A program made the position numbers and the translations under genes. Below the pieces are notes generated by a model. That model made no database searches. It was not told the origin of the DNA and saw only the letters and a list, made by a program, of their open reading frames with translations. Source: Bacillota bacterium (GTDB lineage: Bacteria > Bacillota > Clostridia > Lachnospirales > Lachnospiraceae). From it: a DNA stretch of 64,000 nt. Shown one piece after another: positions 1,531-31,851 of the stretch. Each line of letters starts with the position of its first letter. Position 1 is the first letter of the stretch. The stretch covers positions 1-64,000 of the forward strand of contig JAQXUQ010000005.1 of assembly GCA_029224465.1 (NCBI GenBank), given 5' to 3'.

Positions 1531-1604
1531 TTGTCATGCCAGCCTCAAAATATGGTAAAATAATTTTATCTGCACGAAATGACAGGGGTATACAGGGGGA
1601 AATC

Positions 1605-2708
1605 ATGGAGCGTAAGATGAAATTCCGCGCATTTGCGGCGGCTCTCGCGGCCGGCGTGATCTGCGCCGCAGCCGTGCCGGCGAAAAGTGTGTCGGCCGTG
1701 ACAACCACCAGAGTTACGGGGACCGCGGTAAAGGGAACCGAAGCGAACATGCTGTACCTGCAGACAACGCAGGGAACAATGGTGATTGAGCTGGATAAGG
1801 GCACTGCTTTCACGGGCTGTTCGGGAATCAGTGTAGGGAAGAGTCTGGCCGCGGATGTATACCGCGGACAGAATGCGTATATGCATGCGACGCTTGTGAC
1901 AGATGCCGCGAACGGCGCATCCGCCGGAAACAGCGCCTCCAGCACGCCTGTACAGCCGGAGAAGGCCGGAACTGCCGCGACTTCTTCGGTTTACGGGAAA
2001 ATCAACAAGGAATCGACCAGCGATCTCCTGAAGCTTGATACGCAGGGCGGTCAGATGCTGATCCGCATTGACAGCGGCTGCCAGGTTGAAGGATCAAGAC
2101 TGCTTCTCCCGGGAAGAGAGATAACCGTCTACGTCTATCGCGGTCAGGACGCATATATGCATACGAACCGGATCACAAACGAGAAGAAGGTTGTCAGGAT
2201 TACGGTTGACCGGTCACGTACTTATACGGTTTCCGGCACAATTGAACCGGATTCCACCGAGACGACATTGAATTTCAAAACCGATCAGGGGAATATGACG
2301 ATCAAGCTCGATGAAGATACGGCTGTTTCAGGCGGAGGAGTTATTTGGCCCGGACAGAAAGCCGTTATCACCGCAGCCCGCGGTTCGGATGCGTATCTGC
2401 ACGCGGTTTCGATCGAACCTGCCGTGGATTCAAAGAATTCTGCCGGAGGGCTCCGCGTTATCGACAATTCGCTTCAGACAGCGGCGACTTTGGATATGCG
2501 GTCTGCTTTTACGGTATCCGGAACAATTGTATCCGGAACAACCAGCAATTTAGTGAAACTTTCGACATCAAGTGGTACAATGCTGATTAAAATCGACAAC
2601 ACGACCGATGTCAGCAAGATCAGCGCGCTTGTCGTTGGAAGAACGGCGCAGATCCGCTGCGCCCGCGGCTCGGATGCGTATTTGCACGCGCTGAGCATAC
2701 AGTATTAA
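1605..2708 (+). CDS. Exported protein with four ~70-residue repeats (unknown function)
   Basis: The protein has 367 residues from the ATG at 1605, which follows an AGGGGG ribosome binding site; the longer ORF start at 1521 has none. Residues 1-31 form a signal peptide (charged start, Ala-rich core, SVSA cleavage region). The mature part is four repeats, each with the pattern GT-x-LxLxTxxGxMxIxID, a short variable block, then an RGxDAY(M/L)HA motif. The repeats look like small all-beta modules. I do not recognise a named family; lack of a C-terminal anchor suggests secretion or non-covalent wall association. It precedes a DUF3048 lipoprotein and a wall carboxypeptidase, which fits an envelope role. 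A TGGTAAAAT extended -10 lies at about 1553-1561. Confidence 0.85.
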   Translation: MERKMKFRAFAAALAAGVICAAAVPAKSVSAVTTTRVTGTAVKGTEANMLYLQTTQGTMVIELDKGTAFTGCSGISVGKSLAADVYRGQNAYMHATLVTDAANGASAGNSASSTPVQPEKAGTAATSSVYGKINKESTSDLLKLDTQGGQMLIRIDSGCQVEGSRLLLPGREITVYVYRGQDAYMHTNRITNEKKVVRITVDRSRTYTVSGTIEPDSTETTLNFKTDQGNMTIKLDEDTAVSGGGVIWPGQKAVITAARGSDAYLHAVSIEPAVDSKNSAGGLRVIDNSLQTAATLDMRSAFTVSGTIVSGTTSNLVKLSTSSGTMLIKIDNTTDVSKISALVVGRTAQIRCARGSDAYLHALSIQY

Positions 2709-2802
2709 CAACCGCTCCACGGCCGGCAATCATACAGCCTGTTCAGACTGGAGATATATACCGTCCGGGATCGGAAATTCAGTTGAGGAAAGGTTTGTTT
2801 TT

Positions 2803-3933
2803 ATGCGAAACAGAAAATGGATGATTGTAGCAGCAGCTGCACTGATTGCGACCATGGCGACAGCCTGCGGTTCGAAGGGCAAGTCACAGGAATCTTCTCT
2901 TGTAGAGACAATCCCGGTTGATGAGCGCGTAAGCCAGGAGAGCTCGGAAAGCGCAGCCACAGAGGCGAAGACAGAGGAAGCTGCCACCGGTGACACCATT
3001 CCCGAAGGAATGTATGCGAGTGAACTGACCGGACTCCCTGTCAGCGAAGACATCAAGGATCAGAGACCCATCGCGGTCATGATTGACAATGATAAGCGCG
3101 CGCTTCCGCACTACGGTCTTTCCGAGGCGGATATTGTCTATGAGCTGATGAACTCTACAGCCAACAACCGGATTACCCGTCTGATGGCGATGTACAAGGA
3201 CTGGGGCAAGATCGAAAAGGTCGGCAGCATCCGTTCCGTACGTCCTACCAATATCCTGCTTGCGCAGGAGTGGGATGCCGTGATCTGCCATGACGGAGGC
3301 CCTTTCTATATTAATGATTACCTTTCCCGCTATGGAATTCATTTCTCCGGAACGTTTTCCCGCGTAGATAACGGGAAACCCAGAGAATTTACTGAATTTA
3401 TTCTTTCGGGCGACTTGGATAAGAACTTCAAGAATTCTTCTTATTCCACGACGTATGATGACCGTAAGCAGCCCGGCGACCACTTCAATTTCACACAGTA
3501 TGGAACCGAAGTTAATCTGGACGGCCAGGACAATGTCATCGCGGCGAACAACGTAAAGCTTCCGTTTGCCAATACGACACCGGAGCTGAAGTATAATCAG
3601 GATACAAAGACTTACGATTATTACGAGTTCGGTAATCTCAGTAAGGACGGCGGCGACGGTAATACGGTTTCGTTCAAGAATCTATTTGTGCTTTCCTGCG
3701 ATTTCCATCAGTACGACGACAACGGCTACCTGATTTACAATGTTATCAAGGAAGGCGGTCAGGGCTTCTATGTAACCAACGGCAAGGCTGTCCCGATTTC
3801 CTACAGCAAGACAAGTGAGGGCGGAATCACCCAGTACTTTGGAGCTGACGGCAATCCGATTGAAATCAATAACGGCAAAACATACATCACCTATGTTCCT
3901 GACGACAGCTGGAGCAAACTGACAATCAACTGA
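2803..3933 (+). CDS. DUF3048 (YerB-type) lipoprotein
   Basis: The 376-residue protein has a lipoprotein signal ending at Cys22 (MATAC) and a low-complexity Ser/Glu linker to about residue 65. The DUF3048 region follows: RPIAVMIDND, the block SEADIVYELM, ITRLMAMY, the signature GSIRSVRP and a conserved HDGGP. The family includes B. subtilis YerB. Its biochemical role is not established, and a surface location is inferred from the lipobox. AGGAAAGG precedes the ATG by nine bases, and an intrinsic terminator follows, so it is probably transcribed alone or with the repeat protein upstream. Confidence 0.93.
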   Translation: MRNRKWMIVAAAALIATMATACGSKGKSQESSLVETIPVDERVSQESSESAATEAKTEEAATGDTIPEGMYASELTGLPVSEDIKDQRPIAVMIDNDKRALPHYGLSEADIVYELMNSTANNRITRLMAMYKDWGKIEKVGSIRSVRPTNILLAQEWDAVICHDGGPFYINDYLSRYGIHFSGTFSRVDNGKPREFTEFILSGDLDKNFKNSSYSTTYDDRKQPGDHFNFTQYGTEVNLDGQDNVIAANNVKLPFANTTPELKYNQDTKTYDYYEFGNLSKDGGDGNTVSFKNLFVLSCDFHQYDDNGYLIYNVIKEGGQGFYVTNGKAVPISYSKTSEGGITQYFGADGNPIEINNGKTYITYVPDDSWSKLTIN

Positions 3934-26352: not shown

Positions 26353-27705
26353 ATGAAGCAAAACACGCCGCAGGAGCGTTACGCCTACATGACGCAGACG
26401 CCTATACCGAAGCTGATCGGAGGCCTTGCCGTTCCCACGATCATCAGCATGCTGGTATCCAATATCTACAACATGGCGGATACCTTCTTCGTAGGCCGCA
26501 TATCGACGCAGGCGACGGCGGCGGTCGGCATTGTTTTTTCGGTCATGGCAATCATCAATGCCCTTGGCTTTTTCTGCGGCCACGGCTCGGGCAATTTCAT
26601 GTCGAGACGCCTTGGAGCCGGGGATACCCGGCAGGCGAATGAGGCTGCGGCAACCGGGTTCGCACTGGCCTTCATTCTGGGCGCGGTTCTGATGGTTCTG
26701 GGACTCGTTTTTCTGAATCCGCTCTGCAGAATGCTCGGCGCGACGCCTACGATCCTCGAAGACGCGAAAAGCTACCTGCGAATCATTCTGCTCGGCGCGC
26801 CGTTTATGTGTGCGGAACTTGTCGTCAATAACCAGCTCCGTTTCGAAGGAAGCGCGGTATACGCCATGGCAGGACTTGTCAGCGGCGCGGTCATCAACAT
26901 CGGGCTGGACCCGCTGTTTATTTTCGGGTTCGGAATGGGCGTCGCGGGTGCTGCGCTTGCCACGGTGCTCAGTCAGCTGATCGCGTTCGCCATTCTGCTG
27001 TACGGCAGCTATCACGGGCCGAATATTCATATTCATCTGAAAAACGTCCGTTTCAACCGCTATTACATGCTGCAGATTGTCAACGGCGGTTCGCCGTCCC
27101 TCACAAGACAGGGGATGCAGAGCATTTCGACGATCCTGCTGAATACGATGGCCGGCGCAATCGGCGGGGATGCCGCGATCGCGGGCATGTCGGTTGTCAC
27201 AAGAGTCATGATGCTTGCCAATTCGGCGCTGATCGGTTTCGGGCAGGGCTATCAGCCTGTCGCGGCCTTCAATTACGGCGCGAGTCTCTACAAACGTGTG
27301 CGCGAAGGCTTTTTCTTCTGCGTCAAAACAGGCACCGCGTTCCTCCTCGCACTCTCGGCCCTTTTGTTTGCGTATGCGCCTGGAATCATCCGCTTTTTCC
27401 GGGATGACCCGGATGTTGTGGATGTCGGCATGCGCGCGCTGCGCTATCAGACGATTGTCTTCTTCCTTGCAGCGTTTATTGTCATGTCCAACATGATGCT
27501 GCAGTCCATCGGAAAGGGAGTCAGGGCGACGATCCTCGCTTCGGCGCGGTCCGGTCTCTTTTTCATACCGCTCATTCTGATTCTGCCGAAGATGCTGGGT
27601 CTGACCGGCGTCGAAATAACGCAGGCGGTATCCGATGTCCTGACATTCGCAATCTCGATCCCGCTTGTCCGTTCTGTCCTTAAGGAAATGGAGGAGGCAA
27701 AGTGA
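26353..27705 (+). CDS. MATE-family efflux transporter
   Basis: The 450-residue membrane protein has the MATE fold: PTIISMLVSNIYNMADTFFVGRI at the start, GHGSGNFMSRRLGAGD, and the second-half MQSISTILLNTMAGAIGGDAA with GFGQGYQPVAAFNYGA. It is of the NorM/DinF type and unlike the other MATE at 11512 in its loops. Its stop overlaps the GTG of the barnase-like lipoprotein, which links the two genes translationally. The substrate is unknown. Confidence 0.94.
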   Translation: MKQNTPQERYAYMTQTPIPKLIGGLAVPTIISMLVSNIYNMADTFFVGRISTQATAAVGIVFSVMAIINALGFFCGHGSGNFMSRRLGAGDTRQANEAAATGFALAFILGAVLMVLGLVFLNPLCRMLGATPTILEDAKSYLRIILLGAPFMCAELVVNNQLRFEGSAVYAMAGLVSGAVINIGLDPLFIFGFGMGVAGAALATVLSQLIAFAILLYGSYHGPNIHIHLKNVRFNRYYMLQIVNGGSPSLTRQGMQSISTILLNTMAGAIGGDAAIAGMSVVTRVMMLANSALIGFGQGYQPVAAFNYGASLYKRVREGFFFCVKTGTAFLLALSALLFAYAPGIIRFFRDDPDVVDVGMRALRYQTIVFFLAAFIVMSNMMLQSIGKGVRATILASARSGLFFIPLILILPKMLGLTGVEITQAVSDVLTFAISIPLVRSVLKEMEEAK

Positions 27706-28298
27706 GAAGAGTTCTTCGAAGCCGGCTCCGTGCCCTGCTTCCCGTTCTGCTTGTCCTGCTGCTTGTCAGCGGCTGCGGTTCTGCTCCCGCTTCGGCGCCC
27801 GGCAAGCCTGCGGGCGGGGATAGCGTGGCGGCGTCAACAGCCGCGGGCGCAGAACAGTCAATGCCGGAGGAAGCAGGCGCAGCCGCATCGGCAGAGCAGG
27901 ACGCGCCGGACGCCGACATACAGGATGCGCCGGACGCAGAGGCGCCTGCGGAAGACGGCGCGTACACATCGAAAGACGAGGTCGCGCTTTATCTTTATAC
28001 GTACCACCATCTGCCATCGAACTTCATTACGAAGAAGGAAGCCCGAAAGCTCGGCTGGGAGGGAGGTCCGCTGCAGGATTTTGCCCCCGGGAAAAGCATC
28101 GGAGGCGATCACTTCGGAAATTATGAAGGCGTTCTTCCGGAAGACGCGGACTATCATGAGTGCGACATAGATACAAACGGCGGCAGCAGAGGCGCGAAAA
28201 GAATCGTCTGGTCCGGCGACTGGAACATATACTATACGGACGACCATTACGGGCATTTCACGCAGCTGTATAACGCGGACGGGCCGGTTTCTCCCTGA
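27702..28298 (+). CDS. Barnase-like ribonuclease lipoprotein
   Basis: This 198-residue protein is a predicted secreted, lipid-anchored guanyl-specific RNase. The start is GTG, overlapping the MATE stop. A lipoprotein signal ends at Cys25 (LVSGC) and an Ala/Asp/Glu-rich linker reaches about residue 88. The catalytic domain then follows barnase closely: NFITKKEARKLGW, GKSIGGDHFGNYEGVLP, ECDI with the general-base Glu, RIVWS with Arg, and DHYGHF with the catalytic His. All three key residues are present, so it should be active outside the cell. Its inhibitor, barstar, lies 1.1 kb downstream beyond a permease gene. Confidence 0.93.
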   Translation: MRRVLRSRLRALLPVLLVLLLVSGCGSAPASAPGKPAGGDSVAASTAAGAEQSMPEEAGAAASAEQDAPDADIQDAPDAEAPAEDGAYTSKDEVALYLYTYHHLPSNFITKKEARKLGWEGGPLQDFAPGKSIGGDHFGNYEGVLPEDADYHECDIDTNGGSRGAKRIVWSGDWNIYYTDDHYGHFTQLYNADGPVSP

Positions 28299-29438: not shown

Positions 29439-29750
29439 ATGATTGTCTATTATATTGATCTGCAGGGTGTCGGCACGAAGGAACAGCTCCATGAACGCCT
29501 GCGCGAAGCTCTGCCGCTGCCGTCCTATTACGGAAATAATCTCGACGCGCTGCATGATGTTCTGGAAGAGAGCGGCAGAGACTGGGAACTGATTTTCTAT
29601 AACTGCAGGGGAGCCGATCAGGCGCTTGGCGGATACATGGGAGCGCTGCGCGCGATGTGCGCGGAGACGATCGCTTCATGGGAAGATGACCCGCAGTACC
29701 GCGATATGGAAAAGAAGGCCGGGAACTGGCCGGTCAGGTTTTATGATTGA
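29439..29750 (+). CDS. Barstar-family RNase inhibitor
   Basis: The 103-residue cytoplasmic protein matches barstar: IDLQGVGTKEQLHERLREAL, then LPSYYGNNLDALHDVL, whose Tyr/Asn/Asp cluster plugs the barnase active site, and WELIFYNC. It would protect the cell from its own barnase-like RNase. AAGGAG lies seven bases before the ATG. It is cotranscribed with the EamA permease rather than directly with the toxin gene. Confidence 0.94.
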   Translation: MIVYYIDLQGVGTKEQLHERLREALPLPSYYGNNLDALHDVLEESGRDWELIFYNCRGADQALGGYMGALRAMCAETIASWEDDPQYRDMEKKAGNWPVRFYD

Positions 29751-29951: not shown

Positions 29952-31793
29952 TCATTCCACCGCGATGAACACATCGCTTCCCTGATGACATACGGGACAC
30001 TCCTGCGGAACTGACGCAGCAAAAACAATTTCTCCACAGACCGTGCATTTCCATGCCGTCACCTGATGGAAATGGCTTTGCTCCTGATGGCAGACATGGC
30101 ATTCCGACGGCGCTTCGTCACCTTCCGTGACATAGCTGCATACATCGCATTGCCAGATCTTTTTGCCTGTCCCGCCGCGGAATAAAGTTACCTGTTCCGT
30201 AATATCCGTAAAAACATCCCTGCCCTGATGGCAGACCGGGCACTCTGCGGGAGGCTGTGTCCCTATGACCACCTCTCCGCAGACCGTGCATTTATAGACA
30301 TGCACCTGCCCAAGGTTATCTGCGCCGGTGTGGAACAGGATGCTGCTTTGGCCGGCGGATGCTTCGGCAGAAGCGGCAGGCGAAAGATTCTGATACTGCT
30401 GATATCTGCCGGCATCTTCCCCGAGTAACCCGCTTCGGTCCTCGTAAACGGTATGCAGCATCTTTTCCGCGAGTTCGCTAAGCGGCTTTCCGTAAAATGT
30501 GCGGTATAGCTCCAGAATCTCTTCATTTTCATGACTGCAGCGCTGCGCTTTCGGCAGGGACGCGTCCCGTTTATACAGACCGTCAATGCGTTTTTCCAGA
30601 AGAATATTTCCCTTTTCCTGCGTACCTTTCGGCTGACCGCCGCCGCCAATGCATCCGCCGGGACAGGTCATGACTTCTACGAAGTGATACTGTACGGGAT
30701 CCTTTTTCTGCCGGTCGAGAAATTTACGTACATTTGCCGTACCGTAGATAACCGCGACACGGATCTTCAGATCACCGATAAGGACGGTGGCATCCCGGAG
30801 ACCGTCCATTCCGCGGACCGGCTGCAGATCATACAGCTGATCCGGTGCCTGTCTGCCGGTAATATAGTAGTAGGCGGTTCTGAGCGCGGCTTCCATGACA
30901 CCGCCGGTGTTGCCGAAGATGACACCGGCGCCGGAGCCTTTTCCCATAAACGAGTCATAAGACTCTTCCGGCAGTGCAGGAAAGTCAATTCCCGCTTCTT
31001 TTGCCCACTTTGCAAGCTCTCTGGTTGTGATGACATAGTCCATGTCGCGCATGCCGTCGATGCCGGAATATCTGCCTGCCGCGTTCATTTCATCCCTGCG
31101 GATCTCGAATTTCTTGGCAGTGCAGGGCGTCAGAGCAACGTTCACGATTTTGCGAGGGTCTATTCCCATCTTACCTGCAAAATAGGTTTTAATCGTGGGC
31201 CCCTGCATTCCGATCGGGCTTTTGGCTGTTGAAATATTGGGCAGCAGCTCCGGATAATAGATTTCGGCAAACTTTACCCATGCAGGGCAGCAGGATGTAA
31301 ACTGGGGGAGAGGTTTGTCTTTACGGGTGATGCGTTCTACAAGCTCGCTCGCCTCTTCCACAATCGTCATATCCGCCGCGAAGTTTGTATCCAGCACATA
31401 GTCGGCGCCGAGCTTTCGAAGAAGCGCGACTATTTTTCCCTCGACAAAGCTGCCGTCTGTCATACCGAATTCCTCGCCCAGAGAAATCCGGACGGAAGGA
31501 GAAGTGCTGAAGATGACAATCTTTTCGGGATCGCGGATCGCCTGTTTGACCAACTCGGTCTCCGGAACCTCGGAGATGGCTCCGGTCGGGCAGACGTTGG
31601 CACACTGACCGCAGTGAATGCAGACGGCCGTGTCATCTGTATGTTTGAGGTTGTAGTAGCCGAGTACGGAAATATAGTCCCGGCATACATCCCTGCAGCT
31701 GCCGCATTTAATACATTTCTCCTCTGCGCGATAAATAGAAGGATTACCCGGTTCGATGGGAACGCGAATGTCTGACGAAAGATGTTTGCTCAT
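29952..31793 (-). CDS. [FeFe] hydrogenase with three C-terminal rubredoxin-like domains
   Basis: The 613-residue enzyme (ATG at 31793 after AGGAGG) would produce or oxidise H2 in the cytoplasm. Two 4Fe-4S clusters are held by CIKCGSCRDVC and CIHCGQCANVCP near residues 25-70. The H-cluster motifs follow: TSCCPAW (L1), TPCTAKK (L2, where MPC is usual) and MTCPGGCIGGGGQP (L3). After a linker near 470-490 come three rubredoxin/rubrerythrin-type metal sites: CTVCGE...CPVC, CDVCSY...CHVC and CTVCGE...CPVC. These suggest electron exchange with a one-electron carrier or an oxygen-detoxifying partner. No maturation genes (hydE, hydF, hydG) are nearby. It lies downstream of the glycerate genes. Confidence 0.94.
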   Translation of the reverse strand: MSKHLSSDIRVPIEPGNPSIYRAEEKCIKCGSCRDVCRDYISVLGYYNLKHTDDTAVCIHCGQCANVCPTGAISEVPETELVKQAIRDPEKIVIFSTSPSVRISLGEEFGMTDGSFVEGKIVALLRKLGADYVLDTNFAADMTIVEEASELVERITRKDKPLPQFTSCCPAWVKFAEIYYPELLPNISTAKSPIGMQGPTIKTYFAGKMGIDPRKIVNVALTPCTAKKFEIRRDEMNAAGRYSGIDGMRDMDYVITTRELAKWAKEAGIDFPALPEESYDSFMGKGSGAGVIFGNTGGVMEAALRTAYYYITGRQAPDQLYDLQPVRGMDGLRDATVLIGDLKIRVAVIYGTANVRKFLDRQKKDPVQYHFVEVMTCPGGCIGGGGQPKGTQEKGNILLEKRIDGLYKRDASLPKAQRCSHENEEILELYRTFYGKPLSELAEKMLHTVYEDRSGLLGEDAGRYQQYQNLSPAASAEASAGQSSILFHTGADNLGQVHVYKCTVCGEVVIGTQPPAECPVCHQGRDVFTDITEQVTLFRGGTGKKIWQCDVCSYVTEGDEAPSECHVCHQEQSHFHQVTAWKCTVCGEIVFAASVPQECPVCHQGSDVFIAVE

Positions 31794-31851
31794 AAGTACC
31801 TCCTTATAAATCACTGTGCTGTATATTGCATGCTGCAGCCGGGGAGCATGT

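Follow-up and report, generated by a model that had tools for sequence, protein, structure and literature searches.

A [FeFe] hydrogenase with three fused rubredoxin-like domains: a candidate H2-uptake enzyme of the HydR/CpII lineage that may serve a separate rubrerythrin

To what end would a [FeFe] hydrogenase carry three rubredoxin-like (Rd) domains in a row, and which protein would receive the electrons that pass through them? The question is raised by a gene of a gut-type anaerobe (Lachnospiraceae), found in a stretch of 64,000 nucleotides that was analysed as a whole and is called here the window. The gene is encoded on the minus strand, with its ATG at 31793 and a stop codon ending at 29952, and comprises the following features.

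29952..31793, minus strand: [FeFe] hydrogenase with three C-terminal Rd domains, 613 aa (open reading frame, Pfam and NCBIfam)
31798..31805, minus strand: ribosome-binding site AAGGAGGT, 4 nt 5′ of the ATG (sequence reading)
31590..31715, minus strand: two [4Fe-4S] (F-cluster) motifs, Cys 27/30/33/37 and 58/61/64/68 (Pfam and motif reading)
30639..31523, minus strand: H-cluster domain, PF02906 (Pfam)
31278..31298, minus strand: L1 motif TSCCPAW, residues 166-172 (motif reading)
31104..31130, minus strand: L2 motif TPCTAKKFE, residues 222-230, the same as in CperHydR (motif reading and comparison with the paper)
30630..30677, minus strand: L3 motif EVMTCPGGCIGGGGQP, residues 373-388 (motif reading)
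30435..30599, minus strand: Fe_hyd_SSU domain, fused in the same chain (Pfam)
30315..30389, minus strand: predicted flexible linker, residues 469-493, pLDDT below 50 (AlphaFold2)
30210..30296, minus strand: Rd domain 1, RUBY_RBDX (profile, motif and Rd comparison)
30069..30155, minus strand: Rd domain 2, RUBY_RBDX (profile, motif and Rd comparison)
29967..30053, minus strand: Rd domain 3, RUBY_RBDX (profile, motif and Rd comparison)

The initial annotation described a normal core with two clusters and an H-cluster, followed by three fused rubredoxin-type sites, and both parts of this description, which gave no strand, are borne out. In Pfam, the protein matches Fe_hyd_lg_C (1.3e-90) and Fe_hyd_SSU as well as ferredoxin motifs, and RUBY_RBDX is hit in three separate stretches (3.9e-22). 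The protein also passes the NCBIfam profile for group A [FeFe] hydrogenases (TIGR02512) with 468.9 bits against a cut-off of 405.95. Three complete C-x2-C-x12-C-x2-C sites are present in the tail, at residues 502-521, 549-568, and 583-602. The cysteine ligands are complete, with eight for the F-clusters, those of L1, L2, and L3 for the H-cluster, and 12 for the Rds; among the 26 Cys in all, C419 is the sole one without a motif assignment. The AlphaFold2 model has a mean pLDDT of 88, with the disordered linker 469-493 preceding the Rds, and a fold search returned [FeFe] hydrogenases as the closest solved structures (about 40-45% identity). By its profile score and its complete L1, L2, and L3 cysteines, the protein is a group A [FeFe] hydrogenase of predicted activity.

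The L2 motif had been regarded as altered because it reads TPC instead of MPC, the lost Met being taken as an oddity. The reading is correct, but Thr is normal for the lineage, being present in 108 of 110 relatives and replaced by Ala in the other 2. L2 is TPCTAKKFE in CperHydR, the [FeFe] hydrogenase-rubrerythrin chimera of C. perfringens (Taylor et al. 2025, JACS), and TPCTAKKYE in CpII of Clostridium pasteurianum (PMC11926857). Both CpII and HydR are biased toward H2 oxidation (PMC11926857, PMC5506873), and the Thr/Ala pair has been discussed as a cause of this bias (PMC11926857). It has also been reported by Therien et al. that the commonest replacement of Met353 among CpI homologues is Thr (PMC5506873). 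The second-sphere residues listed for CpII are S99, T137, and T223 (PMC5506873), and S98, T136, and T222 of the window protein correspond to them through a constant offset of one, which together with A226 gives the set S98, T136, T222, and A226. Judged by its residues, the L2 of the window protein is thus ordinary for the CpII/HydR lineage, and the Thr is ruled out as an anomaly. The initial annotation had named a Thr common in active enzymes as grounds against its reading, and for L2 this is what was found, as the residue is a CpII/HydR signature present in active enzymes.

The catalytic domain, for which a phylogenetic placement had been suggested at that stage, falls in the HydR/CpII lineage. 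In the HydA-domain tree, where relatives with the HydR architecture stand in for CperHydR, itself absent, the window protein groups with G005, G036, L005, and L007, all of them carrying Rds only (1-3 copies), with 99/98 support, and this subclade nests within the HydR/CpII clade. Other Rd-only proteins are placed elsewhere: L004 and L006 cluster with L008, a HydR, and L123 with the HydRs L122 and L124. A single origin of the confident Rd-only forms was rejected when they were constrained to one clade (p-AU 2.6e-5), and a second Rd-only group (2-4 Rds) evolved separately from that of the window. The hydrogenase lineage of the window occurs in just 3 of 37 sampled members of the genus, while L005 and L007 bear the names of other genera; horizontal transfer or repeated loss is therefore likely.

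Tails were classified from 80 loci of the genome collection and from the sampled genomes. There are 49 proteins of the HydA-Rd-diiron-Rd type, 32 without a tail, seven of a HydA-Rd-X-Rd type (L042, L053, L054, L058, L060, L062, and L077), and the Rd-only set. The Rd count in relatives, also suggested by the initial annotation, ranges from one to four within this set: the window protein has three, L004 four, L005, L006, and L086 two each, and L007, L123, L040, and L045 one each. L040, on a short contig, and L045 are doubtful one-Rd entries and were left out of the confident count. L045 was rejected as an Rd-only form, being likely a HydR broken by one in-frame stop; at 1541-3580 this stop parts a HydA-Rd frame from an Rbr-Rd frame in an otherwise HydR-like sequence. 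Another fusion variant is seen in L009 (5938-8025), in which HydA-Rd is followed by a ferritin domain of the reverse-rubrerythrin type. The Rds of the window protein and of the other Rd-only forms are closer to the linker Rd of HydR than to the C-terminal Rd of rubrerythrin.

The number of three is not due to chance, since the congener G005, whose gene is split across two contigs, retains three Rds and all 12 Cys at a tail identity with the window protein of only 64%. Matching Rds of the two proteins are 80, 70, and 67% identical, values which mostly exceed the identity between Rds within one protein, and the triplication is therefore probably older than the split between them.

The neighbourhood of the relatives points toward peroxide stress. 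Regulator genes, named PerR-like for the similarity of their products to a PerR-like protein, are situated upstream of the hydrogenase gene and on its own strand at 21 of the 45 HydR loci that have sufficient flank, and at 7/7 HydA-Rd-X-Rd loci versus 1/31 tail-less loci. A rubrerythrin gene (rbr) is found directly downstream in all seven HydA-Rd-X-Rd loci and of three tail-less HydA genes (L013, L015, and L017); that of L017 encodes an Rd-diiron-Rd protein, and the pair amounts to HydR in two pieces. The rbr downstream of L053 encodes a ferredoxin-Rd-Rbr-Rd fusion. The X domain (ELSAVCSNLARGCEKQY...RICVWGEKVTR), unlike the Rds on either side, is recognised by no Pfam family and is without ExxH ligands; its AlphaFold model is helical and poor (mean pLDDT 46).

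No rubrerythrin or PerR-like gene adjoins the window hydrogenase. Among the other confident Rd-only genes for which flanks are available, the one exception is L123, which has a PerR-like gene in divergent orientation. Upstream of the window hydrogenase, on the same strand, lie genes for a glycerate kinase and GntP, the kinase stop being about 60 bp upstream. A functional operon with them was given little weight; the upstream neighbour in G005 differs. Elsewhere in the window, a Barnase-type ribonuclease and a barstar-like gene lie close together at 27702-28298 and 29439-29750 (both plus strand), and the window opens with the last part of a 23S rRNA (3′ end, positions 1-98), after which come three tRNAs. 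At more distant loci, the genome encodes a stand-alone rubrerythrin (diiron domain and Rd; contig C4) and a reverse rubrerythrin adjoining a PerR-like gene (contig C30), and it also encodes two flavodiiron proteins (contigs C14 and C4), a superoxide reductase, and two stand-alone rubredoxins.

On balance, with confidence only somewhat above even, the window protein would be an H2-uptake hydrogenase that supplies rubrerythrin-type peroxide reductases with electrons in trans. As a cytoplasmic enzyme of the CpII/HydR lineage, it would split H2 at the H-cluster, and the electrons would then run via the two [4Fe-4S] clusters into the flexible tail of three one-iron Rds. The potentials of rubrerythrin-type Rds are far above that of the H2 couple, so this flow would be downhill. 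Since the diiron module is missing, delivery to a separate rubrerythrin would be the simplest reading; the tail would most likely reduce the stand-alone rubrerythrin of the genome, which would in turn reduce H2O2 to water. The protein may thus be seen as HydR minus its peroxide-reducing diiron module, with the electron-delivery domain multiplied. We infer the catalytic direction, the iron in the Rd sites, and the identity of the acceptor from these comparisons, and the value of three Rds would lie in electron buffering and docking. The link between H2 and the removal of peroxide or oxygen, put forward in the initial annotation, thus gains support from the lineage and from the PerR-like and rbr genes beside relatives, while the acceptor itself is deduced.

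The flavodiiron proteins are the main rival acceptor. They commonly draw electrons from rubredoxin, and the same uptake hydrogenase might feed them (for O2 or NO), the superoxide reductase, or the rubredoxin pool, for all of which the genome has genes. This is a possible but clearly less probable outcome: what relatives conserve beside their hydrogenase genes are genes for rubrerythrin and PerR-like proteins, the queries used revealed no flavodiiron gene in these flanks, and the acceptor fused in the characterised HydR is a rubrerythrin. The tail might instead bind zinc in its Cys4 repeats as a docking or structural element, as small Cys4 knuckle domains can do, and the copy number does vary from one to four; this seems very improbable, given that the best family match is the rubredoxin domain of rubrerythrin and that the Rd centres of CperHydR are ferric by EPR (PMC11926857). 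Least to be expected is a sensory hydrogenase signalling H2 or redox state through the tail, a role also raised in the initial annotation. There are [FeFe] hydrogenases that act as sensors with the help of accessory clusters, but the Pfam scan returned no PAS, kinase, or other sensor or output domain, so that a place in groups C/D was rejected; the core is of group A with CpII/HydR residues, and the neighbours of the lineage indicate peroxide stress.

A separate doubt concerns maturation of the H-cluster, because the searches for HydF (TIGR03918) and HydG (TIGR03955) detected neither maturase in the two three-Rd genomes, that of the window (95.9% complete) and G005 (93% complete). HydF is present in 19 of 37 genus members, and HydG exceeded the cut-off in 0 of 37. 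Without HydE, HydF, and HydG, the protein might stay apo or have shifted to a redox or structural role, and thus not work as a hydrogenase here. We regard this as doubtful, as every H-cluster ligand is conserved, the genome holds two further proteins with H-cluster motifs, and G036, a two-Rd form, has HydF. Moreover, clostridial acetogens with HydE and HydF have already posed the puzzle of an apparently absent HydG (PMC9431212), and the missing HydF and HydG may reflect incomplete assemblies, with contigs lost, or divergent maturases. It is more doubtful still that, in the organism of the window and in G005, an H-cluster protein of intact appearance dispenses with the HydEFG route and yet functions, coupled to the Rd array, whether matured along another path or serving in redox chemistry without the two-iron subcluster.

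The wider meaning of these proteins lies in the relatives, which show HydR to be one arrangement among several in a modular set: the full fusion itself, HydA alone beside rbr, HydA with 1-4 Rds, and HydA with another middle domain beside rbr. Those with Rds only are natural test proteins for the exit of electrons from a CpII-type hydrogenase, and from them one could learn whether gut anaerobes can use H2 against peroxide when the proteins involved are separate.

The closest known system is HydR, which has been described as a unique fusion burning peroxide with H2 and has been shown experimentally to oxidise H2 and to reduce H2O2 via Rd and diiron centres (PMC11926857). The window protein shares with it the core of two [4Fe-4S] clusters and an H-cluster, the identical L2, and an Rd fused after Fe_hyd_SSU; the tree and the Rd comparison support a common lineage of the HydA core and the presence of a linker-type Rd. 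The window protein departs from the HydA-Rd-diiron-Rd order of HydR in its tail: its three Rds are all linker-type, the diiron four-helix domain is missing (no PF02915 match in the Pfam scan), and so is a C-terminal Rd of the rubrerythrin type (WECRNCGH). The linker Rd of HydR sits between the hydrogenase and the diiron centre, and it is this one that the window Rds resemble. CpII is matched in having two F-clusters only, the L2 Thr, and the corresponding second-sphere residues (by offset), from which a bias toward H2 oxidation would be expected, but CpII has no C-terminal accessory domain, whereas the window protein has its three Rds. The Rds are of the type found in rubrerythrin and reverse rubrerythrin (PF21349), although the diiron peroxidase domain of those proteins is lacking. 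Finally, the unfused relatives (L013, L015, L017, and the seven HydA-Rd-X-Rd loci) belong to the same hydrogenase lineage and have the acceptor on a separate chain, as is proposed for the window protein; there rbr is adjacent, whereas in the window genome it lies at a distant locus.
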